A stretch of DNA of 34,531 bases from Singulisphaera sp. GP187. GTDB lineage: Bacteria > Planctomycetota > Planctomycetia > Gemmatales > Gemmataceae. Under the pieces are notes generated by a model. It was not told where the DNA came from. It searched no databases and saw nothing but the letters and a program-made list of their open reading frames with translations. The DNA lies in contig CAMDQN010000070.1 of NCBI GenBank assembly GCA_945905925.1, positions 1 to 34,531 of the forward strand, in the 5' to 3' direction. The position numbers were made by a program, and so were the translations under genes. This document shows, piece by piece, positions 1,779-34,483 of this stretch. How positions within the stretch are numbered: position 1 is the first letter of the stretch; every line of letters begins with the position of its first letter.

Positions 1779-1890
1779 CTGCGACGGAACCCCAGTGCTG
1801 GTATGGAGTTAGCATAGCGCACCGGGGCCGTCGCGCCAAGAGATAATCGATGTATAGTGTTTGCAAATAACAACTTGTGTCAAATCAGAC

Positions 1891-1906
1891 TTTTGTCGGA
1901 GGCGTC
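1891..1906 (-). repeat. Right terminal inverted repeat of the IS element
   Basis: TTTTGTCGGAGGCGTC, an exact reverse complement of bases 1-16. Confidence 0.9.
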
Positions 1907-1945
1907 TCCTCTGTGTTCTCTGTGACTTTGTGGTTAATTCTGCTT
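1907..1945. repeat. Dispersed 'CTCTGTGTTCTCTGTG' type repeat
   Basis: The bases next to the IS right end read CTCTGTGTTCTCTGTG followed by ACTTTGTGGTTAAT. This resembles an intergenic repeat found in planctomycetes and other bacteria whose reverse translation gives NHK/HKxHK strings. The IS appears to have landed in or beside such a repeat. Its relation to the HK-type repeat at 8969-9127 is suggested by composition only. Confidence 0.45.
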
Positions 1946-1992
1946 TCTTTTCTACGCTTATCGTGTGGCTTTTACATTTGGAGGCTCAACGA

Positions 1993-3294
1993 ATGACGGC
2001 GGTTCCGGCGCGGGCGTGGGCGGTGACCGCCGCGGGCACAGCCGTTAACCTGTGTCTCGGCATCCTCTACGGCTGGAGCGTCTGGAAGGCCGCGCTCGTA
2101 CCGCAAGACGCGTCCCTCTACGGCACGCCCATGACCGGGCTGAACGAGGGCTGGATTTACCTCAGCAACACTCAAGGCAACTGGGCCTACTCCGTCTGTG
2201 GGGCCGTGTTCGCGCTGTTCATGATCCCCGGCGGTCGCCTGCAGGACCGATACGGGGCGAAAATCGGGGCCACGCTCGGCGGGTTGTTCCTCGCAGTCGG
2301 GTGCATCATCGCGGGCTTGATGAAGAGCTACGAGGGCCTGGTGATCGGGTTCGGCGTGTTCGGCGGAATCGGGATGGGTCTGGGCTACGCCGCGGCCACG
2401 CCCGCTGCGGTGAAGTGGTTCCACAGCAGCCGGCGCGGTCTGATCGTCGGCTTGGTTGTCGCCGGGTACGGGGCCGCTGCCGTTTACATCTCCCCGCTCG
2501 CGGACTACCTCATCCGAACCCACGGCTTGACCGGCAGTTTCGTGGGACTGGGTATCTTGTTCGCAGTCGTGGTGGTGATCGCGGGGCGGTTGCTCAACCC
2601 CCCGCCGACCGGGTATGTGGCGCCCGCTCCCGAGGCGAGCGTAAAGAAAGAACAGGGGACTGACGCCCCACGCTCGCCTCAGATCGACTTCAGCGCGAAT
2701 CAGATGCTGCGCACGTGGCAGTTCTACGCGCTCGTGTTCCTGTTCATCGGGTCGGCGCAGTCGGGCCTTCTCGTCATCGCGAACGCGAAGTCGCTGCTCA
2801 CGGACGCCGCGGGCAAAACGGGCTTCTTCGCCGAGAACGCGTGGCTGCTCGTCACCTTCATCGGCGTCGTGAATGCAACCGGGCGCGTCGGCACCGGACG
2901 GTACTCGGACCGCATCGGGCGGTTAAATGCCTACGCGATCAACGGCGCGGTTTCGGCCCTCTGCCTGCTCGTCGCACCGTGGGTGATCGCGGAGAAGAAC
3001 GTCTTCCTGCTGTTCGCGATTATTGGCGTGATGGCGTGGCAGTACGGTGGCTCGCTCGCGCTCCTGCCGGCGATGACTGCCGACTACTACGGCCCGAAGA
3101 ACATGGGACTGAACTACGGACTGGTATTCGCGGGCTGGGGCATCGCGTTCTTCGTGCCGCAGGTGGCGAGCGTCATCAAGGACGCCACCAAGCAGTGGGA
3201 CGGGGCGTTTTACCTGTCGGCGGGACTGCTCGTTGCGGCGGTGCTGGTTAGCCGTATAATCCGCAAGCCGGTTTCAGCCGCGTCTTCCGCCTGA
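1993..3294 (+). CDS. OFA-family MFS transporter (oxalate/formate antiporter-like)
   Basis: A 433-residue integral membrane protein with about twelve hydrophobic segments, arranged six plus six around a central hydrophilic loop (the PAPEASVKKEQG area). It resembles the OFA group of the major facilitator superfamily, with GGRLQDRYGAK after the second helix and TGRVGTGRYSDRIGR in the second half, both forms of the MFS loop 2-3 motif. OFA members exchange small organic anions across the inner membrane, but the substrate cannot be told from sequence. The ATG at 1993 was chosen because GGAGG lies at 1980-1984. An upstream TTG-started extension would run through IS and repeat DNA and is not credible. 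It is the first gene of a plus-strand run with short gaps. Its native promoter may have been lost to the insertion sequence. Confidence 0.85.
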   Translation: MTAVPARAWAVTAAGTAVNLCLGILYGWSVWKAALVPQDASLYGTPMTGLNEGWIYLSNTQGNWAYSVCGAVFALFMIPGGRLQDRYGAKIGATLGGLFLAVGCIIAGLMKSYEGLVIGFGVFGGIGMGLGYAAATPAAVKWFHSSRRGLIVGLVVAGYGAAAVYISPLADYLIRTHGLTGSFVGLGILFAVVVVIAGRLLNPPPTGYVAPAPEASVKKEQGTDAPRSPQIDFSANQMLRTWQFYALVFLFIGSAQSGLLVIANAKSLLTDAAGKTGFFAENAWLLVTFIGVVNATGRVGTGRYSDRIGRLNAYAINGAVSALCLLVAPWVIAEKNVFLLFAIIGVMAWQYGGSLALLPAMTADYYGPKNMGLNYGLVFAGWGIAFFVPQVASVIKDATKQWDGAFYLSAGLLVAAVLVSRIIRKPVSAASSA

Positions 3295-3342
3295 GACATT
3301 GGGCAACCTGGCAGAATTAGCCACCCCACGGGGCTGAAACTT

Positions 3343-3720
3343 ATGTTGTTCGCGTTGCTGTTTTTCTTAATCACCGCGCACGCGCTGATGGATTATTCGC
3401 TCCAGAACGATTCGATGGCGGGGTGCAAGTGCCGGAAATCCACCAACCCAATCGCCGCGAGCGTGCCGTGGTACTACTGGCTTACCTCGCACGCGTTCCT
3501 GCACGGGGCCGCGGTCGGCGTCATTTTCCGGTGGATGAACTTCGATTGGAATGTGGTCACGGCCGTCGCGATGGCGGAAACTGTGATCCACTGGTTCACC
3601 GACTACGGTAAGTGCGAGAAGTGGTACTCACTGCACGTCGATCAGGCCATCCACATCAGCTGCAAAATCGCGTGGTGGGCGCTCGTCGCGTGCGAAGTCG
3701 TCAAGCCGATCGGGGCGTAA
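3343..3720 (+). CDS. DUF3307 family membrane protein
   Basis: A small protein of 125 residues with about three to four hydrophobic segments. Conserved-looking positions are the N-terminal AHALMDYSLQND, the LTSHAFLHG segment, ETVIHWFTDYGKC, and the C-terminal DQAIHISCKIAWW. The His and Asp residues in or near membrane segments fit DUF3307, whose function is unknown and which also occurs in phages. It lies 48 bases after the MFS gene and ends one base before the DevB start, so it is probably co-transcribed with the exporter. Whether it takes part in export is not shown. Confidence 0.7.
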   Translation: MLFALLFFLITAHALMDYSLQNDSMAGCKCRKSTNPIAASVPWYYWLTSHAFLHGAAVGVIFRWMNFDWNVVTAVAMAETVIHWFTDYGKCEKWYSLHVDQAIHISCKIAWWALVACEVVKPIGA

Positions 3721-3721
3721 C

Positions 3722-4915
3722 ATGCCGCACACCGCGGGACGCGCCTGCCCTCGTCGTGGTAGCACGCTGACCACGGTACTCGTCGCGCTTGTCTCGCTCA
3801 TGGCCGGCGGCGCCGCGGGATACTTCATCGCTGGACACGCGAACAAACCCGAAGCCAAGCCCGACCCAGGCGCGACCACCGGTCCCACGGCACGCGACCG
3901 CGTCACCGCGCTCGGGCGCCTCCAGCCCGAAGGCGGCGTTGTGCCCGTGTACGGCCCGCCCGGGGACCGCATCGTGAAGCTCTATCCTCTCGCGCCAGGC
4001 TCGTCACTGAAGGCCGGTGATCCAATCGCCGAACTCGCGAGCTACAAGGACCGGCAACTCGAAGTTCAGATCGCGAAAACGCAACTCGACGAAGCGAAGG
4101 CCGCCCGCGACGCGGGCAAGTTGGCCGGTGAGAAGAAGATCCTGGCCGCGAAGGCCGAACTCAATCAGGCGAAGGCCAACAAGGTCAGCGACCTCGCTGC
4201 GCTCGACGCGAAGCTCAAGGCCGTTGAACTTCAGGCGAAGACCGCCACGAAGCAAGTCGAGCGGTTGAAGAGTGTGAAGACCGCGGCCGAGGACATCGAG
4301 CGGGTGGAACTGCTTCAGGCGCAGGCCAACGCGGAACTCGCCGCGACCCAGGCCACGCGCGATAAGACCAGAATCACTTACGAAGAGACCGAGAAAGCGA
4401 CACAAGCGCGAATCGAAGCGGCAGAAGCGGAGTTGAAGGAGGCGCTCGCCCGTGTTCCGATCAAGTCGTCGGAGGAGAAGGTCGCGCTCGCGGAGCAACT
4501 GCGCGCGCTGACAATGCTCAAAGCGCCGGTGTCCGGCATCGTGCTGAAAGTGACCGGGCGCGACGGCCAGCCTACCGGCATGGAGCCGATCCTTCAGCTC
4601 GCGGACCTCGGCAAGATGACAGCGATCGCCGAAGTGTATGAGAGCGACGTGGCACGCCTCGCGTCGTGGGTGCGCGGCGGTCCGGTGATGGCGGAAGTCA
4701 CGAACCCGGCGCTGCCGAAGCCGCTGAAAGGCGTGGTCCGCTCGGAAGCCGACATCACGCGAATGATCGCGCGGAACCAGGTGTTCGCAATGGGTCCGCG
4801 CGAAGACGTTGACCGGCGCGTGGTGGAGGTGATCGTTCACCTCGACGACGCGAGCGCCGCGGACGCCGGCCGGTTCGTGGGACTTCAGGTGACGGTAGCG
4901 TTCGTGCCGAAGTAG
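3722..4915 (+). CDS. devB: DevB-like periplasmic adaptor (membrane fusion) protein
   Basis: This 397-residue protein should link an inner-membrane ABC exporter to an outer-membrane channel. It has one N-terminal membrane anchor (about residues 17-38), a first lipoyl half (ALGRLQPEGGVV, then GDRIVKLYPLAPGSSLKAGDPIAEL), a long Lys/Ala/Glu-rich coiled coil (about 110-255), the second lipoyl half (LTMLKAPVSGIVLKV), and beta-barrel and membrane-proximal domains. The GRLQPEGG motif is typical of DevB of the DevBCA exporter, which in cyanobacteria exports heterocyst glycolipids. The cargo here is unknown. The ATG follows the DUF3307 stop codon after one base. Two DevC-like permeases and a DevA-like ATPase follow on the same strand. 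Confidence 0.85.
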   Translation: MPHTAGRACPRRGSTLTTVLVALVSLMAGGAAGYFIAGHANKPEAKPDPGATTGPTARDRVTALGRLQPEGGVVPVYGPPGDRIVKLYPLAPGSSLKAGDPIAELASYKDRQLEVQIAKTQLDEAKAARDAGKLAGEKKILAAKAELNQAKANKVSDLAALDAKLKAVELQAKTATKQVERLKSVKTAAEDIERVELLQAQANAELAATQATRDKTRITYEETEKATQARIEAAEAELKEALARVPIKSSEEKVALAEQLRALTMLKAPVSGIVLKVTGRDGQPTGMEPILQLADLGKMTAIAEVYESDVARLASWVRGGPVMAEVTNPALPKPLKGVVRSEADITRMIARNQVFAMGPREDVDRRVVEVIVHLDDASAADAGRFVGLQVTVAFVPK

Positions 4916-4990: not shown

Positions 4991-6208
4991 ATGACTCCCC
5001 TTCGGCTCGCGTGGGCGAATCTGGTTCACAAGCGGGCGCGGACATTCGTCGCCGCGGCCGGGGTCGCGTTCGCCGTCGTCCTCGTGTTTATGGAACTAGG
5101 CATGCTCGGCGGCGTCGGTCGCACCGCGACCATGCTCTACGACAAGCTCCAGTTCGATCTGCTCATCACGTCGTCCGAGTACCTCGACCTGAGCCGCGCA
5201 CCCGAGTTCCCGCGACAGCGGCTCGTGCAGGCTCGCGTCGATGCCGTGGACGACGTGATTCCGGTTTCGTTCGGGGTCGCCGGGTGGCGGGCGCCGCGCC
5301 AGGAATCGCTGTTCGGCGACACCGAACCGGGCGGGCAGTTGAGCATCAACATCGTCGCGGCCCCGCCGGACAAGTTGAACAAGGCGTTCGTCGTGGGAGA
5401 ATCTGGTGCGTTCGCTTCGGAAGCGGAAGCGATCGAAGCGGGAAAGAGACTGAAGCAACTCGACACGTTCCTGCTCGACCGGCGTTCGAAGCCGGATTTC
5501 GGCGACCTCGCGAAGTTGCAGGCGATCCCGCCCGACGGTCGCGGCGGCGAAGCGGTTCGCCTGAACGGTCAGCGCGCGAGCGTGGTCGGCGGGTTCGATC
5601 TCGGCACCGGATTCAGTTGGAACGGGATGCTGCTCACCAGTGAAGAGAGCTACGCCAAGTACGCGATGCGTCCCCGCGACGCGGTTCATTTCGGACTCGT
5701 GCAAGTGAAGCCAGGCGTGAACCCGGTCGCGGTGCAGCAACACTTGCGACGCACGCTGCCGCCCGACGTGAAGGTGTACACACGCGCCGAGATCAACGCG
5801 GACGAACGCAACTACTGGCTGCGGCTCACGTCGATCGGTCAGTTCCTGCTCGTCGCGGTTATTCTGGCAATCGTGGTCGGTGTGATCTTCGTGTACCAGA
5901 TGATGGCCGCGGACATTCGCAACATGCTGCCAGAGTACGCGACCGTGAAGGCGCTCGGGTATCGCCCGCCGTACCTAACGGGCGTGGTGCTGTGGCAGGC
6001 CGTGCTGCTCGCGGTGTTCGGCTACGTTCCGGGGTTCGTCGCGGCGCTGGGGCTGTATCATGTGGCGAGCAACTTCGGCGGTATCCCGACCGCGATGACG
6101 CTCGAAACGGCTGTAGGCGTGCTCGCGCTGACGTGCTTCATGTGCCTCGCGTCCGGGCTGTTGGCCGTGCGGAAGGTTCACTCGGCGGACCCGGCCGACC
6201 TCTTTTGA
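4991..6208 (+). CDS. devC: DevC-like ABC exporter permease, first copy
   Basis: A 405-residue inner-membrane permease of the FtsX/MacB-like fold. One membrane segment lies near the N-terminus (about 18-40, after LAWANLVHKRAR). A large extracytoplasmic domain follows (about 50-270), then three more membrane segments in the C-terminal third. LPEYATVKALGY after the second helix is the expected contact with the ATPase. The N-terminal pattern, with FAVVLVFMELGMLGG and a following EFPRQRLVQA, fits DevC. A second, clearly different DevC-like gene follows, so the exporter may be a heterodimer, whereas cyanobacterial DevBCA has one DevC. It should assemble with the DevB before it and the ATPase at 7507-8961. 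Confidence 0.85.
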   Translation: MTPLRLAWANLVHKRARTFVAAAGVAFAVVLVFMELGMLGGVGRTATMLYDKLQFDLLITSSEYLDLSRAPEFPRQRLVQARVDAVDDVIPVSFGVAGWRAPRQESLFGDTEPGGQLSINIVAAPPDKLNKAFVVGESGAFASEAEAIEAGKRLKQLDTFLLDRRSKPDFGDLAKLQAIPPDGRGGEAVRLNGQRASVVGGFDLGTGFSWNGMLLTSEESYAKYAMRPRDAVHFGLVQVKPGVNPVAVQQHLRRTLPPDVKVYTRAEINADERNYWLRLTSIGQFLLVAVILAIVVGVIFVYQMMAADIRNMLPEYATVKALGYRPPYLTGVVLWQAVLLAVFGYVPGFVAALGLYHVASNFGGIPTAMTLETAVGVLALTCFMCLASGLLAVRKVHSADPADLF

Positions 6209-6210
6209 AA

Positions 6211-6300
6211 GGGATGAAGGATGGGAGGATGAAGGATGAATGGAAGACCATGTGGTCTTCGTGTTTTCCTTCATCCCTCATCCCTCATCCTTCATCCCTC
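6211..6300. repeat. Imperfect inverted repeat of 'ATGAAGGATG' type
   Basis: The gap between the two devC genes is almost wholly taken by GGGATGAAGGATGGGAGGAT-like sequence on the left and its approximate complement (TTCATCCCTCATCC and similar) on the right. The centre GAAGACCATGTGGTCTTC is a perfect hairpin of 8 bp with a 2-base loop. The arms are related by short tandem GGATGAA units, so the pairing is imperfect. Confidence 0.75.
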
Positions 6301-6302
6301 AC

Positions 6303-7517
6303 ATGCGACCTCCACCCGTACCGCTGGCCTGGAAGAACCTTGCTCACGACAAGGTGCGGTTCGCGCTGTTCGCGTCCGGCATTGGGTTCGCGGTGGTGCT
6401 CATGGGCGTTCAATACGGCATCATGAATGCGATGCTCGACAGCAACACCGTGCTCATCGAACGACTCAAGGGCGACATCGTACTCATCAACCCGAACAAG
6501 GTGTCGCTGCTGTTCCGCGAAGGCGTGTCGCGCCGGCGCATCGCGGAGGTGGAAGGCGTGAGCGGCGTGAAGAGCGTCACGCCGGTGTATACGGAGTATT
6601 CCATCGCGTCGCTTCGACACACCGCGAACGACCCGGCGGCACGCACCAACACGCGCCGCATTCGCGTCGTCGCCGTCGATCCGAACGCCGACGCGCTCGA
6701 CCTGCCCGGCGTGACCGCGAAGGACTGGCAGGAGTTAAACACGCCCGGCACGGCGCTCTACGATCGCAAGAGCCGCGCGCACCCAGACCAGGTGAACCAC
6801 CCAGGCGAATCGGTGTTCGGCAAACTCGAACCGGGCGCGCGCACCGAACTCGCGGGGCGAGAGATCCGGCTCGTTGCCGGTTTCGAGATGGGTTTCGACT
6901 TCGGCACCGATGGCAGCGTGGTGGTGAGCGACCGCACGTTCGAGAAGTGGGTGCGCGAGCCGTACTACCCCGCGGAACCGATGGCGGAATGTGACATCGG
7001 ACTCGTGAAACTCGACCCCGGCGCCGATCCGAAAGTGGTGAAGGCCGCGCTCGAAGCGAAGTTCGCCGCAGGCGACGTGCTGGTTCTCACACGCGACGAG
7101 ATGGTGTCGCGCGAGAAGAGTTTCTGGTGGACGAACACGCCGATCGGGTTCGCGTTCGGGGCCGGTGTGTTGTTGGGCTTCGTCGTCGGTGTGGTGATCT
7201 GCTATCAGATTCTCGCGAGCGACGTGGCCGACCACCTGCCCGAATACGCGACGCTCAAGGCCATCGGCTACACAAACCGTTACCTGAGTTGGATCGTGTT
7301 GCAAGAATCGCTGATCCTCGCGGCGGCCGGCTTCGTCCCCGGAGTGCTGGTGACTTACGGCGCGTATCTCCTGCTCACGGAGATCACCGGGTTGCCGATG
7401 GTACTCACGCCGGGGCGCTTTGGGCTGATCCTGGGGCTGACGATCGTGATGTGCGTTAGCTCCGGGCTGCTCGCGGTGAACAAGGTGAAGAAGGTGGATC
7501 CCGCCGATGTCTTCTGA
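6303..7517 (+). CDS. devC: DevC-like ABC exporter permease, second copy
   Basis: A 404-residue paralogue of the preceding permease, with the same layout: one N-terminal membrane segment (FALFASGIGFAVVLMGVQYG), a large extracytoplasmic domain, and three C-terminal membrane segments around LPEYATLKAIGYTN. The two copies differ throughout, so the duplication is old. The ATG at 6303 (MRPPPVPLAWKNL) was chosen because the 21 codons upstream in frame, from an ATG at 6240, are encoded by the repeat and give a low-complexity string (FIPHPSSFIPH). No strong Shine-Dalgarno is visible before 6303, so translation from the repeat cannot be excluded. The 3' end overlaps the ATPase start by 11 bases, which suggests translational coupling. 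Confidence 0.83.
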   Translation: MRPPPVPLAWKNLAHDKVRFALFASGIGFAVVLMGVQYGIMNAMLDSNTVLIERLKGDIVLINPNKVSLLFREGVSRRRIAEVEGVSGVKSVTPVYTEYSIASLRHTANDPAARTNTRRIRVVAVDPNADALDLPGVTAKDWQELNTPGTALYDRKSRAHPDQVNHPGESVFGKLEPGARTELAGREIRLVAGFEMGFDFGTDGSVVVSDRTFEKWVREPYYPAEPMAECDIGLVKLDPGADPKVVKAALEAKFAAGDVLVLTRDEMVSREKSFWWTNTPIGFAFGAGVLLGFVVGVVICYQILASDVADHLPEYATLKAIGYTNRYLSWIVLQESLILAAAGFVPGVLVTYGAYLLLTEITGLPMVLTPGRFGLILGLTIVMCVSSGLLAVNKVKKVDPADVF

Positions 7518-8961
7518 TGCTCAAAACAACCCCTCCCCAACCCCTCCCCTAAGAAGGGAGGGGCTAAATCCGGCTCCCCCTCCCTTCTTAGGGGAGGGGG
7601 TTGGGGGGAGAGGTTCTTCCCCCCTCCCGCCGCCCGGTCAGCCGGTGCTCCGCATCCGCGGGGTGAACCACTACTTCGGCACCGGCGACACGCGAACACA
7701 AGTGCTCTTCGACAACACACTCGAAGTGATGCCCGGTGAAATGGTCATCATGAGTGGGCCATCAGGCTCCGGTAAAACCACAATCCTCACGCTCATCGGC
7801 GGACTGCGCACGCTGCAAGAAGGCGAGATCGAAGTCTGGGACGCGAACCGCGGGGACTACCGCACGCTGCGCGGCGTACCAGAACCGGAGTTGGTCAATG
7901 TTCGGCGGCTCATCGGGTTCATCTTCCAGCGACACAACCTGTTCGACTCGCTCACCGCGATGCAGAACATCCGCATGGCGCAGCGCCTGAAAGAGAGCGC
8001 CGCCGACCCCGACGAAGCCGCACGCGACATCCTCACGTACCTGCTCCTCGGTGAGAAGGACATTCAATCGAAGTCGCAGAAGTCGCGGTTCGACTACAAG
8101 CCCGCGAAGCTGTCTGGTGGGCAGCGGCAGCGCGTCGCCATCGCCCGCGCGCTCATCAACCGGCCAAAGCTCGTGCTCGCCGACGAACCCACCGCCGCGC
8201 TCGACGCGAACTCTGGCCTCGCGGTCGTCACACTCGTGCAGGAACTCGCGCGTGTTCGTTCCGAAACGGATTTGCAGAAGCTCGTGCGCCCGGCCGAAGA
8301 AGCCGGTGAGAACGGCCGACTCGCGGAGTGGCAGGTGCCGCTGCTCAGGAAGATCGCCACCGAACACGGCACCACCAGTCTCATCGTGACGCACGATTCG
8401 CGCATCATGAACCTCGCCGACCGCATCGTTCATATGGAACGCGGGAGGATCGAATCGAACGTGGTCGTCGCGGAGCGCCTGTTCGTCCGCGAAGGGCTGA
8501 GGCAAAGCCCGGCATTCGCCGCGATCCTGCCCGAAGAGCAGGAGAAGATCGCGGATTCCGTGTTGGTGGGGGTTCACCCGAACGACCCGGTGCGCCCGGA
8601 TCACTTGGCGGCAAAACCGGGGTGCGTCGAAGTGTACGAACCCGGACAGGCGATCGTGCGACAAGGCGACGCGGTCAATGCGGAGAGCAAGTTCTACCTG
8701 ATCCGGCGCGGGATTGTGGACGTGTCGCGTGTCGTCAACGGGGCAACGCAAAAACTCACCGAGATGGGATCGGGTCGGTACTTCGGCGAGGTTGCGTTCC
8801 TCATGGATCAACCGCGGAACGCGACCGTGCGTGCGATCACCCGCGTCGAAGTGTACACGGTGAGCCGCGCCACATTCGACAAGTTTCGGTCGGTGAGTTT
8901 GCCGTTCATCGAACGCGTGCTGGCGAACTTCCGCGCCGGCGACGGCACTCCGCGAACCTGA
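7507..8961 (+). CDS. devA: DevA-like ABC exporter ATPase with C-terminal cyclic-nucleotide-binding domain
   Basis: A 484-residue ATPase that should power the DevBC exporter. It carries the Walker A motif (GPSGSGKT, residues 84-91), Q-loop Q141, signature LSGGQ (202-206), Walker B (LVLADEP, 222-228) and H-loop H296. About 40 residues rich in Glu/Arg (247-285) separate Walker B from the H-loop, longer than usual. Residues about 374-470 form a cyclic-nucleotide-binding domain: EPGQAIVRQGD, FYLIRRGIVDV, YFGEVAFL and PRNATVRA match the phosphate-binding cassette. The N-terminal 40 residues are largely encoded by the palindromic repeat at 7528-7615. The ATG at 7507 overlaps the devC stop. An in-frame GTG at 7645, after a purine-rich stretch in the repeat, is a possible alternative start. 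DevA proteins without this extra domain are about 230-250 residues. Confidence 0.85.
   Translation: MSSDAQNNPSPTPPLRREGLNPAPPPFLGEGVGGRGSSPLPPPGQPVLRIRGVNHYFGTGDTRTQVLFDNTLEVMPGEMVIMSGPSGSGKTTILTLIGGLRTLQEGEIEVWDANRGDYRTLRGVPEPELVNVRRLIGFIFQRHNLFDSLTAMQNIRMAQRLKESAADPDEAARDILTYLLLGEKDIQSKSQKSRFDYKPAKLSGGQRQRVAIARALINRPKLVLADEPTAALDANSGLAVVTLVQELARVRSETDLQKLVRPAEEAGENGRLAEWQVPLLRKIATEHGTTSLIVTHDSRIMNLADRIVHMERGRIESNVVVAERLFVREGLRQSPAFAAILPEEQEKIADSVLVGVHPNDPVRPDHLAAKPGCVEVYEPGQAIVRQGDAVNAESKFYLIRRGIVDVSRVVNGATQKLTEMGSGRYFGEVAFLMDQPRNATVRAITRVEVYTVSRATFDKFRSVSLPFIERVLANFRAGDGTPRT
7528..7615. repeat. Palindromic 'CCCCTAAGAAGGG' repeat inside the devA 5' end
   Basis: The left arm (7528-7563) reads AACCCCTCCCCAACCCCTCC followed by CCTAAGAAGGGAGGGG. 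The right arm (about 7575-7615) is its near complement, with a short loop. The same left arm occurs at 19009-19044. In the devA frame it gives PSPTPPLRREGLNPAPPPFL, so the repeat is read as protein if translation starts at 7507. Confidence 0.85.
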
Positions 8962-9953: not shown

Positions 9954-9993
9954 CGCGTAGCGAAAGAGACACGGGTGGGTGAAGGGCGGGACC

Positions 9994-10518
9994 ATGTTAT
10001 TCGCTGAAATGTTCGACGCAGCTCGGACCTGGGCGGGCGGGCATCTGCCGCTCACGGTCGGCGGGGGTGTCGCGCTGCTGGTGTTGGTGTTGCTGGCAGC
10101 CAGTGCCGTTTTGCGCCGGCGTGAACTCGACCCGGCGAAACTGGCGACGACCAACACGAACGCCGTGACTGGCGAGAAGGCGCTGAGCTGGACACCAACG
10201 GAGCAGTCCTATGCCGACCGCCGAGGGGCCGTCCGTCGCGAGGGCCAACCGGTTCGCGTGCTGCTCGCTTCCACGACCTTCCGCAACGGGACCGGCGATG
10301 GCTACGTTATCGACCGCTCGACCGGTGGGCTGAAACTCGCGATCCAAAGCGCCGTGCCCCCGGGAACGACCGTTCAGGTGCGCGCCCTCGACGCGCCGGA
10401 CACAATCGGGTTCGTCACGGTCATCGTCCGCAGTTGCCGCAAGAACGACGACTACTACGAACTCGGCTGCGAGTTCGACAAGACCCCGCCGTGGAACGTG
10501 CTCCTGTTGTTCGGGTGA
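9994..10518 (+). CDS. Membrane-anchored PilZ-domain protein
   Basis: A 174-residue protein with one N-terminal membrane segment (LTVGGGVALLVLVLLAASAV) and a PilZ-like domain in the last 100 residues, a family that often binds cyclic di-GMP. The domain shows an RRxG start (RRGAVRREGQPVRV), a D-x-S-x-G-G motif (IDRSTGGLKL) and a late GCEF strand, matching RxxxR and DxSxxG of PilZ. The ATG at 9994 follows AAGGGCGGG. A GTG at 9979 would add five residues and is less likely. The last coding bases (LLLFG and stop) lie within a perfect 19-bp hairpin. It could be a cyclic di-GMP effector at the membrane; the target is unknown. Confidence 0.75.
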   Translation: MLFAEMFDAARTWAGGHLPLTVGGGVALLVLVLLAASAVLRRRELDPAKLATTNTNAVTGEKALSWTPTEQSYADRRGAVRREGQPVRVLLASTTFRNGTGDGYVIDRSTGGLKLAIQSAVPPGTTVQVRALDAPDTIGFVTVIVRSCRKNDDYYELGCEFDKTPPWNVLLLFG

Positions 10519-15708: not shown

Positions 15709-18700
15709 CTACCTATCCGCGCGGAACTGCAACAGCCCCATGCCCTCGGGGCGCGGCTCGTTGTCGGCCGGGCCACTCCACGACTGCACGCCCACGCCCG
15801 GCACGAACCGCGACACGTTCATCGCCCACGTCTTCCCGTGAGCCGGCTTGTCGCTGGTCAATTCCACAAGCGGAATCGCGATCTCCGCCGTCCAGCCGGT
15901 GTCGGTCGCGTTGAACGCGACGTGGTACTTTGGGTTCCAGCCCTTATCGCCCCAACAGTCTTCCGCCAGACAACCGCGATGGTCGATCTGGAACCGGTAG
16001 TACGTCTGGTAGTCGCGGTCCATGTCGAGCAGGATGTCCACGCGATCGTGACCGCGCATGTCGGCATCGCGGAGCCGCTTCGCGACCGGTTCGACCTTCT
16101 TGCCGGTCGGGTACTCGCATTTCACCGCGATGTACACGTGGCGGTCGTCGTAGGTGAACATGCTCTCGGTCTTGTACTGCTCGCCGAACGTCTTCGCTTC
16201 TTCGGAAGCGGTCACCTTTAGTGACAGTGCCTTCGCACTCTTCCAACAATCGTCGTCGAGTTTACCGTCGAGTAGCGGGCGGCTATCGGTGAGTTTGCAG
16301 TACGCGAGCGGCTTCGGCGCCATCGGAATGGCGCTGGTGTTCGCGAGCCACATCTCCGCCGCGAGGCAGTCGCGCCACGGGTCGAGTCCGGGGTTCGCGG
16401 TCACGGCGGCGGGCGTGTGCTTGAAATAGTCGTTGATGAACGTGTCCGCGTCGTTGTGGCGCCCGACCTGCCGACGCGCGGCGAGGAAGCACAGCCACGA
16501 AGCCGGGTCGCGACTGTGGACTGGACCGAACGCGGCCAACTTCGGTTCCAGATCGAGACACGTCTGGTGCCACTTCAGAATCATGTTCGGGCTGTAGAAC
16601 TTGTAATGATCCTCGGTCACCGACGCGCCGCCGATGCCCGTGGTCGTGCCGCTCGCGGGCGCGATCTTGTTTCCGCTGTTGGCGTCGAAGGTCACGTTCT
16701 TGAGCAGCAACTTCTGCTGAATTTCGGTGCGACGACGGGCTTCGCTGCTCGCGTGGTAGCGCGTCATCCAGCGGAATGCTTCGACCGATAGCGGGTGTCC
16801 GGGGTAGTTCACGGTGAGGATGCCGAACACCTCGCGCGCCTCGATCCACTTGCCCTCGCGGGCCAATCGCGTGCCGACCGCGAACGCGGTGCGGGCCGCC
16901 ACGTCGTCGGGCATCTTCCTCAGGTCGGTGGTGAGTGAACCCATCAGTTTGTCCACGCCGCCGAACTCGGTGTCGCTGATGCCGGCGAGCGATTCGAGGT
17001 TCCGGCGCGCCTGCACCGCCTTCTGCTTCTCGGTCGCGGCGGCTGGGTCGTAGGTCATCGCGATGGTGCGTCGTGCCGTTCCGCCCGGTGCGAGCGCGGC
17101 GCCGTCCATCAGGTTGGCGTGCCCTTCCGCGCCTTGCAGCCGGTGCGCGACCAGCACGAAGCAGCGGCGGTCGGTGATGGCGCCATCGCCAGCGAGGACG
17201 CGGGTCGCGGCTTCGGAGTAGTCCTTTGGCGAATCGTTGAGCCGGTTGTTGAACACGCTCTGATCCATCTTCACCGCGGCGGTCTTCGGGTCGAGCGCGA
17301 GCGCGTAGAGCTTCTTCGCGGCCCACGGTTTGAGGCCGAGCGTGGTGATCTGTTCCGGGAATGCGTTCGGGTCGGCGGCTTGTTTGAACGCTTCCTTCGC
17401 GACGTTCAGCGCGAGCGCATCAGCCGGTGTGGTGTCAGCGGCGTAGAGGTCGCACACGATCACTTCCGGCTGCCACGTGCGAATCGCGAGCACCGCCTGG
17501 CGCAGCAGTTGTTCGTTCGCCTTGTTGCCGTGTGCGCGGTCCCACGTTGCGAGCAACTCGCGCGGCGGCAGTCCGACCGCGTGCGCCGCGACCGGGAACG
17601 CCCACGCGCTTTCCGCCGCGGCGCCGCCGGCCAACCGCATCGCGTAACGCGACCGTTCGCCGTCGCTCGCGCGCTTCGGATCGACCGTGGCCGGGTCCGC
17701 GTTCATCAGGCTGGTCGAAGCACACAAGTAGCCGTCGGCGCCGCCGAGGTGCGCCACTACATCGAGCGGCGTACTCTTGCTGCTCGCGTGGAGGAACAGC
17801 GCCGCGGCCCGCTGACCGCCAGCCTTCTGCACCTTCCAGGTCTTGCCGCCGTCGCTCGTGCCGATGATGCACCCGAGATCACCGACGATCCAGCCGTCCT
17901 TTTCGCTGATGAAGTGGATGCCGTTCGCGGGCACGGTGAGTTCGGTCTTCTGCACTTCCCACGTCTTGCCGAGGTCGCTGCTATGCAGCACGAACCCGCC
18001 CGGGCGACCCGCGACCCACACATGATTCCCGACCGAAGCGACGCACTTAAAATCGCACGCCGCGAGCGCCGCGGCCGGAAGTCCGAGGTTCACGAAGCCC
18101 CACTTCTTCCCACCATCGGTGCTGGTGAGCACCGCGCCGCCGTCGCACGCGGCGAAGCACGGCGCGAAACCTAGCGGGGCGGTGCTCCACGCGACACCGT
18201 GGACCGTGCGCCCCGCGAGTGGGTCGAGTTCCGCCTCGTGATATTCGGCGTCCGAATAGCCGCCCGGAGCCTTCGCCGGCAACGGGGGAGTCAGAGTTCC
18301 GAGTTTGCCCCACACGCCCGCGACAAGGGTGTTCCTCCCACCGGGACCGGGAATGATGTCCGCGGCGCGGTTCGACGGCATTCGCGGCCCCTTCACCGGC
18401 TCCCACGTCGCGCCGGCGTCCGTGGTGGTGAACATGCCGGTGGGGAACGCTTCGGAGCCGTCGCCGCACGCGAAGCCGTTCTTCTCGTCGAAGAACTTGA
18501 TCGCGTGCAGACCGGGCATCACGTTGGTGCCCATGTCGGCCCACTTGATGCCGCCGTCGGTGGTCTTCAGCATCACGCCGACCGACCCGGCGGGCGTATC
18601 AATGCGGCCGACCGCCCACCCGGTGTACGGCGTGACGAAGTGAATCCCGCGGAGGCTGGCCCGCGTGCCGGTCTTCTGACGCTCCCACGTTTTACCGCCG

Positions 18701-18873
18701 TCGATGGAGTGCCAGACAGCGCCGTCGTCGCCGCACGCCCAGCCTTCGCTCGCGTCCACAAACTTGACCACGTGCAACCCGGCGTCATCAAATGCGACCG
18801 TGGGTTGTGCGAGCACGGGGGCCGTCATCGCGAACACAGACGCCGCCACGAGAAGTAACCGAGCCTGAATCAT
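15709..18873 (-). CDS. Large secreted Asp-box propeller protein with C-terminal CBM9-like domain
   Basis: A 1054-residue protein with a Sec signal (LLLVAASVFAMTAPVLAQ). Residues about 25-355 hold at least six Asp-box motifs (SIDGGKTW, TTDGGIKW, TTDAGATW, STDGGKKW, SSDLGKTW, TSDGGKTW) of a Ycf48/BNR-like propeller. Residues about 360-560 resemble a PIG-L-type deacetylase in outline (DVVAHLGGADGYL, then IRTWQPEVIVCD), but the HPDD metal site is not evident. A helical segment follows. Residues about 870-1050 look like a family 9 carbohydrate-binding module (LLDGKLDDDCWKSA, FTYDDRHVYIAV, HDRVDILLDMDRDYQTYYRF). The ATG at 18873 was preferred to a GTG at 18885, since GGAG lies close upstream. A cell-surface or envelope role is inferred; no activity can be assigned. 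Confidence 0.72.
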   Translation of the reverse strand: MIQARLLLVAASVFAMTAPVLAQPTVAFDDAGLHVVKFVDASEGWACGDDGAVWHSIDGGKTWERQKTGTRASLRGIHFVTPYTGWAVGRIDTPAGSVGVMLKTTDGGIKWADMGTNVMPGLHAIKFFDEKNGFACGDGSEAFPTGMFTTTDAGATWEPVKGPRMPSNRAADIIPGPGGRNTLVAGVWGKLGTLTPPLPAKAPGGYSDAEYHEAELDPLAGRTVHGVAWSTAPLGFAPCFAACDGGAVLTSTDGGKKWGFVNLGLPAAALAACDFKCVASVGNHVWVAGRPGGFVLHSSDLGKTWEVQKTELTVPANGIHFISEKDGWIVGDLGCIIGTSDGGKTWKVQKAGGQRAAALFLHASSKSTPLDVVAHLGGADGYLCASTSLMNADPATVDPKRASDGERSRYAMRLAGGAAAESAWAFPVAAHAVGLPPRELLATWDRAHGNKANEQLLRQAVLAIRTWQPEVIVCDLYAADTTPADALALNVAKEAFKQAADPNAFPEQITTLGLKPWAAKKLYALALDPKTAAVKMDQSVFNNRLNDSPKDYSEAATRVLAGDGAITDRRCFVLVAHRLQGAEGHANLMDGAALAPGGTARRTIAMTYDPAAATEKQKAVQARRNLESLAGISDTEFGGVDKLMGSLTTDLRKMPDDVAARTAFAVGTRLAREGKWIEAREVFGILTVNYPGHPLSVEAFRWMTRYHASSEARRRTEIQQKLLLKNVTFDANSGNKIAPASGTTTGIGGASVTEDHYKFYSPNMILKWHQTCLDLEPKLAAFGPVHSRDPASWLCFLAARRQVGRHNDADTFINDYFKHTPAAVTANPGLDPWRDCLAAEMWLANTSAIPMAPKPLAYCKLTDSRPLLDGKLDDDCWKSAKALSLKVTASEEAKTFGEQYKTESMFTYDDRHVYIAVKCEYPTGKKVEPVAKRLRDADMRGHDRVDILLDMDRDYQTYYRFQIDHRGCLAEDCWGDKGWNPKYHVAFNATDTGWTAEIAIPLVELTSDKPAHGKTWAMNVSRFVPGVGVQSWSGPADNEPRPEGMGLLQFRADR

Positions 18874-19008
18874 GCTCCGCTCCACTGAACTGAGAGCCTC
18901 CTATCAATCGGCGGAGGCTTTGGGGGAAGCGGGGTAATAGGCGCGCGGCGGAAATGACGCTAGCCGAGTTTCAGGGTCGTTTAGTTCGTGAAGGTAGCTG
19001 GTTTCGCC

Positions 19009-30964: not shown

Positions 30965-33900
30965 GTGAAACCCACCCACTTTACCGGGCGCCGCATTGCG
31001 TTCGGTCTCCTCGCCGCGCTCATCTTCGTGTTCCCCGGCGTTGCCCGGTCCGACGAAGAAGACGACAAACTCAAGAAGGAAATCGCGGACACCCTCAAGC
31101 AGATCGAAGACCTCAAGAAGAAGCTCGACGAACTGCGCAAAGGTCCAGAGTTCCCGCCCGCGCCGAACACGATCCCGGAAGCCGCACTCGCCAAGATGAG
31201 CTGGCGCGGCATCGGGCCAGCGAATATGGGCGGGCGAGTCACCGCGCTCGCGGTCGTCGAGAGCGACCCCACCACCTACTACGTCGCCACCGCCAGCGGC
31301 GGGTTGCTCAAGACCACCAACAACGGCACCACGTTCAGCTTCGTATTCGAGAAGGAAGCGACCGTTTCTATCGGTGATGTCGCGGTTGCGCCGAGCGACC
31401 CGAACGTCGTTTACGTCGGCACCGGCGAGAGCAACCCGCGAAACTCCGCGTCCTATGGCGACGGCGTTTACAAGTCCACCGACGGCGGCAAGAACTGGAA
31501 GAACGTCGGCCTCAAGAAGTCGTTCAGCATCGGGAAGATCGTGATTCACCCGCGCGACCCGAACACGGTGTACGTCGCGGCGATGGGCCGCGTGTGGGGA
31601 CCGAACGAGGAACGCGGTGTCTTCAAGACCGTCGACGGCGGCCAAACCTGGACGAAGTCGCTCTACATGGACAACAACACCGGCGCAATCGAGTTGCGCA
31701 TGGACCCGACCGAACCGAATGTGCTACTCGCGGGGTTGTGGGAACGGAAGCGCGACGAGTTCGACGGGTTCTTCGGCGCCGGTCCGTGGCCCGGGCCGGA
31801 CCAGTACGGACCAATCACCGCGCACGGACCGGGCGGCGGGCTCTTCAAGACCGCCGACGGTGGCAAGAACTGGAAGAAGTTGACCGGCGAGAAGGGCGCG
31901 ACCGGACTACCCACCGTGAAGACCGGTCGCATCGGTCTCGACTATTCGCGCAAAACAAAGGGATTGGTGTACGCGATCATCGACACCGAGGATATTGGCA
32001 AGGGTCGGCCGGCGCTCACGGTGATGCTCGGCGTGTCCGGTGAGGGCGAAAAGGACGGCGCGAAGATCACAGCCACCGTCGAGGACGGTCCCGCCGCGAA
32101 AGCCGGGCTGAAGGCCGGCGACCTAATCACCGCCGCAGACGGCAAGAAGATCACCAGTTACGACGAGCTGCTCGACTTCATGGTGACGAAGAAGCCCGAC
32201 GACGTGGTGAAGCTCACCGTCGTTCGCGGCAAGGAGAAGGACAAGAAAGAAACGCTCACGCTCGAACTGAAACTCGCGCCGCGCCCGGCTGCGACGGAAC
32301 CGAAGGGCAAGGGGCAGACGAGCCTTTCGCCGGGCGGAATCGTGTTCACCATCACCAGCTTTGAAGACCCGGTGAAAGTCGCTGAGGTGCCCAAAGGCGG
32401 GGCCGCCGAGAAAGCCGGCGTGAAAGCCGGGATGACCGTCGTCGCGGTCGAAGGCAAGGGCACCGCGAACTACCGCGAGTTCCGAACGGAGTTGCGAGTG
32501 TCGCCGAAACTGGAGAACCCGCGCAAGGACGGCGAGAAGGTGAAGGTCAGTTTCAAGGACGGCGACAAGAAAGCATTCGAGGCGACATTGCCGCTCGCGA
32601 TGGCAGAGGTGCGGTTCCAGGGCGGCAAGCAGGGGCCGAGCAGCCCGGGGCGACCGTTCCTGATGAACCCGGTCGTCGGCGGGCAGCAGCAGAACATCCA
32701 GGCCAACCAGGGCAAGGACGGCTACCAGACCGGCGGCGTGTACATGTCGAAGGACAACGGCGACACCTGGGCCCGCGTCAACAGCGTGAACCCGCGACCG
32801 TTTTACTTCTCGAATGTTCGCGTCGATCCGACCGACGATAAGTCAATTTACGTTCTCGGCGACACTGTCTTGTGGAAGAGCACGGACGCGGGGAACCGGT
32901 TCGTGAGCGCGCAAGCGGGCACAGTTCACCCGGACCACCACGCGCTCTGGATCGACGCGAAGGACGGCCGCCACATGCTCCTCGGATGCGACGGCGGGTT
33001 CTACAAGACCTACGACCGCGGCGCCACCTGGGATCACCTAAACGTGCTGGCCCTGGGGCAGTTCTACCACGTCGCGGTGGACAACCGGAAACCGTACCGC
33101 GTCTACGGCGGGTTGCAGGACAACGGCAGTTGGGGCGGTCCGTCGCGCACGCTGCGCGGCACCGGACCCGCGAACGAAGACTGGCAGTTCCTCCGCGGCG
33201 GCGACGGGTTCGTGTGTCGCGTCGATCCGAACAACCCCGATTGGATTTACGCCGAAAGTCAGAACGGGGGCATGGGCCGGCTGAACCTGAAGACTGGCGA
33301 GAGCGCTGGCATCGGCCCGCGCCGGGTGAAACCCGACGAGGAGCTGCGATTCAACTGGAACACGCCGTTCATCCTCTCGAATCATAATTCGCACATCTTC
33401 TATTGCGGAGCGCAGTACGTGTTCCGCTCGGTGGCGCGCGGCGACAACCTGAAAGCGATCAGCCCGGAACTGACGCGAACCAAACAAGGCTCGATGACCG
33501 CGATCGCCGAAAGCCCGAAGAGCGCCGACGTGCTGTGGGCCGGCACCGACGATGGCAACCTCTGGGTCACGAAAGACGGCGGCACGAACTGGTCGAACGT
33601 GATCGACAATCTCAAGAAAGCCGGCGCGCCAGGCCCACGCTGGGTGAGCACCATCGAGCCGAGTCGCACAAAGGAAGGACGCTGTTACGTGTGCCTCGAC
33701 GGGCACCGTTCCGACGACGACAAGCCGTACCTGTTCGTGACTGAGGATTTCGGTCAGACGTGGAAGAGCATCGCGAATAACCTGCCGGCGTTCGGCTCGA
33801 CGCGCACGCTCCGTGAGGACATCACTACGTCGGAGATTTTGTACTGCGGCACGGAGTTCGGCATCTGGGTGTCGATCAACCGCGGCGAGACATGGGCGAA

Positions 33901-34483
33901 GTTAAGCAACAACTTACCCACGGTCGCGGTGCATGAGGTCGCGCAGCCGACGACCGCGAGTGAGATCGTGATTGCCACGCACGGGCGCAGTGTGTGGGTC
34001 TTGGACGTGGCGAGCCTGCGGCAGATGAAGCCCGAAGTGCTCGCGGGACCGGTCACGTTGTTCGCGCCGGCGGTGGTGACGCGGTGGCAGTTCGCGCCGG
34101 GGAGCTTCCCGTACTCGCGCGACGTGCGGAAGTTCTACGGCACCAACCCGGCGCCCGGCGGGAGCATCGAGTACCTGCTCACGAAGCCCGCGAAAGACGT
34201 GTCCTTGAAGATACTCGACGTGAACGGCAAGTCGGTGCGCGACTTCAAAGGCCCGCCCACAACGGCCGGCTTCCACCGATTGCAGTGGGCACCGCCGAAG
34301 GCTGGGGGCTACCGCATCGTGTTGACCGTGGACGGAAAGGAGTTCCCGCAGATGGCGACCGTGGAAAACGACCCGAACGCGACGGTCGGCGCGATCATCA
34401 CCGACGCTCCGCTGCCGGCCCCCGGCACCGAAGAGGAAGAGGAGATGGACGTGACGCCGTTCATCCCGAAGGCCTCGGATTAA
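30965..34483 (+). CDS. Large secreted sortilin/VPS10-like propeller protein with two inserted PDZ domains
   Basis: A 1172-residue protein starting at a GTG with a Sec-type signal (about 10-28, AFGLLAALIFVFPGVARS), then a short charged coiled coil (about 32-60). Asp-box motifs (STDGGKNW, TVDGGQTW, TADGGKNW, later SKDNGDTW, TKDGGTNW, TEDFGQTW) mark a VPS10/sortilin-type propeller. Two PDZ-like segments are inserted in the middle: about 350-437 (DGPAAKAGLKAGDLI) and about 450-545 (KGGAAEKAGVKAGMTV). A beta-rich C-terminal domain (about 1040-1140, KPAKDVSLKILDVNGKSVRD) resembles an Ig-like fold and ends in an acidic tail. The PDZ segments probably bind C-terminal peptides in the envelope. No hydrolase residues were identified. 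The 3' end leads into a 19-bp tandem repeat. Confidence 0.8.
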   Translation: MKPTHFTGRRIAFGLLAALIFVFPGVARSDEEDDKLKKEIADTLKQIEDLKKKLDELRKGPEFPPAPNTIPEAALAKMSWRGIGPANMGGRVTALAVVESDPTTYYVATASGGLLKTTNNGTTFSFVFEKEATVSIGDVAVAPSDPNVVYVGTGESNPRNSASYGDGVYKSTDGGKNWKNVGLKKSFSIGKIVIHPRDPNTVYVAAMGRVWGPNEERGVFKTVDGGQTWTKSLYMDNNTGAIELRMDPTEPNVLLAGLWERKRDEFDGFFGAGPWPGPDQYGPITAHGPGGGLFKTADGGKNWKKLTGEKGATGLPTVKTGRIGLDYSRKTKGLVYAIIDTEDIGKGRPALTVMLGVSGEGEKDGAKITATVEDGPAAKAGLKAGDLITAADGKKITSYDELLDFMVTKKPDDVVKLTVVRGKEKDKKETLTLELKLAPRPAATEPKGKGQTSLSPGGIVFTITSFEDPVKVAEVPKGGAAEKAGVKAGMTVVAVEGKGTANYREFRTELRVSPKLENPRKDGEKVKVSFKDGDKKAFEATLPLAMAEVRFQGGKQGPSSPGRPFLMNPVVGGQQQNIQANQGKDGYQTGGVYMSKDNGDTWARVNSVNPRPFYFSNVRVDPTDDKSIYVLGDTVLWKSTDAGNRFVSAQAGTVHPDHHALWIDAKDGRHMLLGCDGGFYKTYDRGATWDHLNVLALGQFYHVAVDNRKPYRVYGGLQDNGSWGGPSRTLRGTGPANEDWQFLRGGDGFVCRVDPNNPDWIYAESQNGGMGRLNLKTGESAGIGPRRVKPDEELRFNWNTPFILSNHNSHIFYCGAQYVFRSVARGDNLKAISPELTRTKQGSMTAIAESPKSADVLWAGTDDGNLWVTKDGGTNWSNVIDNLKKAGAPGPRWVSTIEPSRTKEGRCYVCLDGHRSDDDKPYLFVTEDFGQTWKSIANNLPAFGSTRTLREDITTSEILYCGTEFGIWVSINRGETWAKLSNNLPTVAVHEVAQPTTASEIVIATHGRSVWVLDVASLRQMKPEVLAGPVTLFAPAVVTRWQFAPGSFPYSRDVRKFYGTNPAPGGSIEYLLTKPAKDVSLKILDVNGKSVRDFKGPPTTAGFHRLQWAPPKAGGYRIVLTVDGKEFPQMATVENDPNATVGAIITDAPLPAPGTEEEEEMDVTPFIPKASD

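Follow-up and report, generated by a model that had tools for sequence, protein, structure and literature searches.

A planctomycete DevBCA-type exporter with a cyclic-nucleotide-binding domain fused to its DevA ATPase

In the planctomycete Singulisphaera sp. GP187 (family Gemmataceae), the ATPase DevA of an ATP-binding cassette (ABC) exporter is continued at its C-terminus by a cyclic-nucleotide-binding domain (cNBD), and the gene for this fusion protein closes a row of exporter genes in contig CAMDQN010000070.1 of assembly GCA_945905925.1, whose entire 34,531 nucleotides are referred to here as the window. The fusion, the gene row, their conservation, an intact phosphate-binding cassette and the predicted fold are established in the present analysis, and the system is a real, conserved variant of the DevBCA exporter. 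Judged from sequence and structural modelling, it is also rather probable that the ATPase of this DevBCA-type exporter is switched by a cyclic nucleotide through the fused cNBD.

The fusion gene encodes 484 amino acids (aa) in a frame free of internal stops and stands last in the order DevB-DevC1-DevC2-DevA-cNBD, all on one strand, with its ATG at 7507 overlapping the end of DevC2 by 11 bp. The genes and the parts of the fusion are as follows.

3722 to 4915, plus strand: DevB-family membrane fusion protein, 397 aa (TIGR02971, 314.6 bits against a cut-off of 129)
4991 to 6208, plus strand: DevC-like permease 1 (DevC1), 405 aa (TIGR01185, 257 bits, below the cut-off of 290.35; FtsX, PF02687)
6240 to 7517, plus strand: DevC permease 2 (DevC2), 425 aa (TIGR01185, 301.3 bits, above the cut-off of 290.35; FtsX and MacB_PCD, the latter over its cut-off)
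7507 to 8961, plus strand: DevA ATPase-cNBD fusion, 484 aa (Pfam, NCBIfam, AlphaFold2 model)
7645 to 8454, plus strand: DevA nucleotide-binding domain, residues 47-316 (extent of the TIGR02982 match, motif positions)
8248 to 8361, plus strand: lineage-specific insert before the H-loop, residues 248-285 (length, conservation and substitution-rate comparisons)
8452 to 8541, plus strand: conserved linker from ATPase to cNBD, residues 316-345 (in 18 Gemmata-type proteins, 22 of 30 positions do not vary; model helices)
8629 to 8886, plus strand: cyclic-nucleotide-binding domain PF00027, residues 375-460 (Pfam, predicted fold)
8782 to 8835, plus strand: phosphate-binding cassette, residues 426-443, FGEVAFLMDQPRNATVRA, with Glu 428 and Arg 437 (conservation in 91 fused proteins)
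7525 to 7615, no strand assigned: imperfect inverted repeat within the 5' end of the frame (two 39-nt arms, 85% complementary)

The DevA part matches NCBIfam TIGR02982 with 340.1 bits, above the curated cut-off of 295.8, as do DevB and DevC2 for their own families, while DevC1 stays below; the two permeases are 31% identical to each other. In Pfam, the fusion matches ABC_tran at residues 71-230 (99.1 bits, cut-off 25) and cNMP_binding at residues 375-460 (69.7 bits, cut-off 27.5, E 2.1e-19), and at E values up to 0.001 only these two domains are reported, with neither a C39 peptidase nor a membrane domain on the chain. The ATPase motifs are complete, with the Walker A motif GPSGSGKT at 84, LSGGQ at 202, LADEP at 224 and LIVTHD at 292, the H-loop histidine being residue 296. 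A first-pass annotation of the DNA, made from the letters alone, had already described a DevA ATPase extended by about 170 residues with cNBD motifs, and the description holds: both profiles are above their cut-offs, FGEVAFL begins at residue 426 and PRNATVRA at 436, and the addition, residues 316-484, amounts to 169.

The predicted structure agrees with the profiles. The AlphaFold2 model of the whole protein, built from an alignment of 71 sequences, has a mean predicted local distance difference test score (pLDDT) of 90.0 and a predicted TM-score of 0.83, and its Foldseek matches among solved structures are headed by MacB chains, after which come other MacB-like ATPases and MetN; among the structure matches listed, no description suggests a solved chain bearing both an ATPase and a cNBD. 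Helices are modelled in the linker region at 321-333, 335-338 and 342-352. When the linker and the cNBD were modelled separately (pLDDT 88.8), the model matched the cNBDs of PKG and PKA, so that structure prediction and the PF00027 match both bear out the domain assignment of the first-pass annotation. The best VIA-align row for the cNBD model is the CNB-A domain of PKG II with cGMP (Z 17.9, root-mean-square deviation 1.4 over 118 residues), and within one Z unit of it are further PKG and PKA domains, several in number, which count as tied.

The fusion is widespread among relatives. In a near-relative sample of 59 genomes (the genome of the window and 58 relatives), a match reaching into the cNBD is present in 16 of the 18 same-genus genomes as well as in G025 and G029; the same-genus genomes without such a match are G014 and G015 (68% complete). 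The match in G018 stops at a contig end, and those in G013 and G016 show one in-frame stop each, yet open frames there contain both domains. Reading of the loci adds the fusion in G021, G026, G030, G034, G046, G051, G053, G055 and G057, so that at least 28 of the 59 genomes carry it, the genome of the window included, and an unfused relative of 235 aa is found at L030 and L031. A scan of named genomes with the segment from the H-loop to the cNBD returned 273 relatives, and the results given here rest on the best 80 of them, ranked by similarity to the window sequence. All 80 are fused, including L100, a fragment at the end of a contig with matches to both profiles, which falls below the script's ATPase threshold. 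The first-pass annotation had proposed looking for the same fusion in other planctomycetes, and by record title 71 of the 80 come from there, the remainder being seven from proteobacteria or Verrucomicrobia (L063, L064, L072, L082, L083, L089 and L113) and two labelled only bacterium (L050 and L092), with the proviso that most are metagenome-assembled and may be misbinned. L082 is a named strain, the alphaproteobacterium Terasakiella pusilla DSM 6293.

In a broader sample of the phylum, the whole H-loop-to-cNBD profile was matched in 4 of 392 genomes, own included, and in the class sample 74 of 397 genomes were matched at E 1e-35 with alignment A2 as the query, an undercount because the genome of the window and its genus, which carry the fusion, are not reported there. 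The family of G051 was represented by three genomes only. Plasmid records gave at least 5000 matches, all below 60% identity, of which at least 57 cover 80% or more of the query, so that plasmids may carry fused relatives too. The exporter context recurs with the fusion, since a same-strand DevC relative lies immediately upstream in 47 of the 80 loci and a divergent DevB is found in 20.

The residues expected to hold the ligand are retained in nearly all members. Among 91 fused proteins, which were not picked by their cassette and for the most part were ranked by how similar they are to the window, Arg 437 occurs with Glu 428 in 81 and with Asp in 8, leaving two with neither. The cassette is thus present here and intact in 89 of the 91, and the two outcomes that the first-pass annotation named as refuting its idea, a lack of fused homologues and a cNBD fold devoid of the cassette, did not arise. 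Arg 437 is invariant in the 71-row alignment A3. In a 92-row alignment, the most conserved cNBD positions are those of the cassette and the glycines, with G402, F426, G427 and R437 in 92/92 rows, P436 in 91, A439 in 90 and E428 in 84 (Asp in the other 8), and the invariance of Arg 437 there is partly a selection effect because cassette-less rows had been removed. The residue beside the cassette arginine is Ala in PKA and Thr in PKG. Here it is Asn, as in 77 of the 91 fused proteins, and Asn occupies this position in 12 of 15 ATPase-fused versus 4 of 35 other planctomycete cNBDs (Fisher p 5e-6), a comparison of those domains from L001 and L116-L174 that could be parsed by script, many unparsed cNBDs falling outside the 15 and the 35. 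Given that the sequences are related and some domains unparsed, the Asn is a signature and not a proof of specificity.

A paralogue without the ligand residues provides a ready-made natural control. The family of G053 has 22 fused proteins in 19 of its 45 genomes, of which 4 are intact and 18 lack both Glu and Arg (L175-L181, L184-L190, L192, L193, L199 and L200). The cassette-less set is monophyletic, with support of 0.94 for the ATPase part and 0.998 for the cNBD, in trees of 17 sequences from which one fragment was omitted and in which G539, where Glu is kept and Arg lost, was not included. Gly 402, 423 and 427 are retained in 18/18 paralogues, whereas Glu 428, Arg 437 and Ala 439 are found in 0/18; ligand residues can therefore disappear while the fold persists. 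G444, G451 and G476 hold both intact and cassette-less kinds.

Within the protein, the segments differ in constraint. In 18 Gemmata-type proteins the linker has a mean conservation of 0.961 (22 of 30 positions invariant) and the cassette region of 0.926 (12 of 21), the β-roll of the cNBD reaching 0.758 with 10 of 50 invariant. The first-pass annotation had noted an insert before the H-loop, which does exist (41 residues in the segment here versus 4-6 in relatives without it), and had suggested that it might transmit the signal. This role is rejected: the insert is missing from 62 of the 91 fused proteins, and its mean conservation in the same 18 proteins, 0.737, is the lowest among ten segments, although its invariant share (11 of 38) exceeds that of the β-roll. 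Its ratio of non-synonymous to synonymous substitution rates (dN/dS) is 0.14-0.22 in three of four pairs, the highest of the compared segments in those three, and undefined in the fourth. Over the four pairs, dN/dS is 0.01-0.04 for residues 286-345, which include the H-loop, 0.05-0.14 for the ATPase and 0.08-0.16 for the cNBD, which is thus under purifying selection. We infer that the linker, residues 316-345, is a better candidate than the insert for signal transmission.

A possible source of the ligand was sought with PF00211, which covers class III cyclases only, in the 59 near relatives, the 45-genome family of G053, the 3-genome family of G051 and the 397 class genomes. A cyclase match is present in 76 of the 77 genomes with an intact fusion, in contrast to 7 of the 16 with only cassette-less ones (Fisher p 1e-7), where cassettes were typed by script and by eye, G549, G577 and the second copy of G046 were read as Arg with Glu, G117 was left out and G539 stands within the 16. 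Within the family of G053, cyclases occur in 6 of 15 cassette-less-only genomes versus 26 of 30 others (p 0.004); neither p value is corrected for shared ancestry, the nine genomes that lack a match belong to four genera, and some matches are weak. The pattern can be seen inside genus g297, in which G444 combines an intact copy with a cyclase, and in G442 and G443 there is a cassette-less copy only and a cyclase match is absent. The genome of the window has three PF00211 matches above the cut-off, and, as read by eye, these cyclases retain the metal-binding Asp motifs as well as the transition-state Asn and Arg; Pfam, run on one of the three proteins, reports the cyclase domain only. Because the genomes are related, the association between cyclase and cassette gives modest support to cyclic-nucleotide gating.

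Taken together, these data suggest that the fusion is the ATPase subunit in a MacB-like (type VII) exporter of the DevBCA type and that its cytosolic C-terminus carries a regulatory domain for ligand binding. Two DevA-cNBD subunits would power a DevC permease pair, possibly DevC1 with DevC2. A class III cyclase would make the cyclic nucleotide, the cNBD would bind it, and the C-terminal helix and the conserved linker might then move, as in PKA, PKG and cyclic-nucleotide-gated (CNG) channels; such a movement could alter ATPase pairing or ATP hydrolysis, so that export through DevB would track the level of the messenger. If so, the motor of a DevBCA-type export pump would be under the control of a nucleotide messenger, planctomycetes would gain a direct route from intracellular signalling to export at the envelope, and a little-studied messenger pathway would become testable with one soluble protein.

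Several observations weigh against this gating by a cyclic nucleotide. Ranking relatives by their similarity to the window favours intact cassettes, and in three of the four pairs constraint on the cNBD is weaker than on the ATPase. In 13 of the 80 loci, the single-sequence search found neither an adjacent same-strand DevC nor a divergent DevB; six of these start less than 100 bp from the locus end, L051 and L053 have 2.5-3.3 kb upstream, and in L072 the fusion gene is immediately preceded by a DevB match that was counted in neither class, but L055, L057, L061 and L086 have more than 4 kb upstream with no DevC or DevB match, so that their partners are encoded elsewhere or have diverged beyond the reach of the search. 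Phylogenetic independence is lacking in the cyclase trend, since a single family contributes 15 of the 16 cassette-less genomes and a single genus 17 of the 77 intact ones, and cyclase matches are common across the class anyway (363 of 397 genomes). G612, an intact-fusion genome that is 83% complete, has no cyclase match, while G673 of the same genus has one. Conversely, seven of the 16 cassette-less-only genomes do have a cyclase, and a strict rule that a lost cassette means no cyclase is rejected accordingly. The cyclase matches in the genome of the window are themselves weak (27.9-47.6 bits) and, by eye, show Asp or Gly instead of Lys three positions before the GD motif, which we take to be the usual substrate-selecting Lys site. 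Cyclic AMP (cAMP) or cyclic GMP (cGMP) cannot be assumed as the ligand, given the Asn that so often follows the cassette Arg and the case of HetC, whose domain of the cyclic nucleoside monophosphate (cNMP) family bound guanosine tetraphosphate (ppGpp, Kd 59 µM) and not cAMP (PMC10986499).

The HetC result and the prevalence of Asn (77 of 91 fused proteins; 12 of 15 against 4 of 35) are also what favours the strongest alternative, namely that the cNBD binds something other than a 3',5'-cyclic mononucleotide, such as ppGpp or another nucleotide, and that the exporter follows the stringent response or another signal; this appears unlikely, as 89 of 91 proteins retain the cassette Arg together with Glu or Asp, and such a cassette tends to accompany class III cyclases. 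A more specific and quite speculative reading, to which we give a low probability, is that these proteins form a whole DevBCA class under the direct control of some cyclic nucleotide that is neither cAMP nor cGMP. The Asn beside the Arg would mark the receptor, and the ligand would be made by the unusual class III cyclases found in these bacteria, three of which, those in the genome of the window, lack the Lys; the paralogous clade would then have lost its cassette and its cyclases in one and the same change. That the cNBD might be a ligand-free structural or dimerisation module joining two ATPases is consistent with its weaker constraint relative to the ATPase and with a whole paralogous clade that keeps the domain without ligand residues, in which such a role is possible, but for the fusion at large it is distinctly doubtful, for the best-conserved cNBD positions of the intact group include those of the ligand residues. 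A chance join, an assembly artefact or a decaying fusion is refuted by its occurrence in 16 of 18 same-genus genomes and in the best 80 of 273 relatives, and by purifying selection.

Compared with known systems, the row resembles DevBCA (TIGR02982, TIGR02971, TIGR01185) in having relatives of DevA, DevB and DevC side by side, above the cut-offs except for DevC1, and differs from it in the cNBD joined to DevA and in its two different permeases. DevBCA is known for its role in the export of heterocyst glycolipids. MacB chains head the Foldseek list for the full-length model, and both permeases match FtsX, DevC2 also MacB_PCD, but here the ATPase is on a separate chain with a C-terminal cNBD; in the main text of a MacB review, the term 'cyclic nucleotide' does not occur (PMC5985334). 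The regulatory cNBDs of PKA and PKG and of CNG channels (MlotiK1, SthK) are alike in sequence, fold and phosphate cassette, the differences being that the effector here is an ABC ATPase and that Asn stands beside the cassette Arg. In the osmolyte importer OpuA, cyclic di-AMP acts on CBS domains fused to the ABC ATPase, which parallels the messenger action on an ATPase-fused domain proposed here, although OpuA is an importer with another domain and another messenger. The nearest published precedent found is HetC of Nostoc, a peptidase-containing ABC exporter whose cNMP domain is needed for function; it shares with the fusion the combination of an ABC exporter and a cNMP-family domain, but its domain is N-terminal, a C39 peptidase and a membrane domain are on the same chain, and it bound ppGpp instead of cAMP (PMC10986499). 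No DevA-cNBD fusion was found in the titles or abstract openings of the open-access papers listed by the literature searches.

Some further features of the window and its relatives may be mentioned. Residues 7-36 or so of the fusion are encoded within the inverted repeat at 7525-7615, which is translated in frame, and residues 1-4 and 6-35 have pLDDT below 50 in the AlphaFold2 model; on both grounds the extreme N-terminus probably lies outside the conserved protein. The repeat looks like a dispersed repeat that lengthened the N-terminus, although no search was made for further copies. Upstream of devB, 1861-3720 holds a major facilitator superfamily transporter and DUF3307 gene, and a DUF3307 match adjoins devB in 8 of the 80 loci, every one of the Gemmata type. 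Downstream, a small PilZ (cyclic di-GMP) domain protein is encoded at 9979-10518, with a downstream match also in L036 and L037 (2 of 80 loci). Two large proteins with BNR/sortilin-type repeats are encoded at 15709-18885, with a CBM9 domain, and at 30965-34483, with a PDZ domain. The sole other PF00027 match in the genome, L001 on contig C38, lies in a 944-aa frame, in part of which 4Fe-4S ferredoxin domains flank the cNMP domain on both sides, and frames of similar length with a PF00027 match occur in several same-genus genomes.

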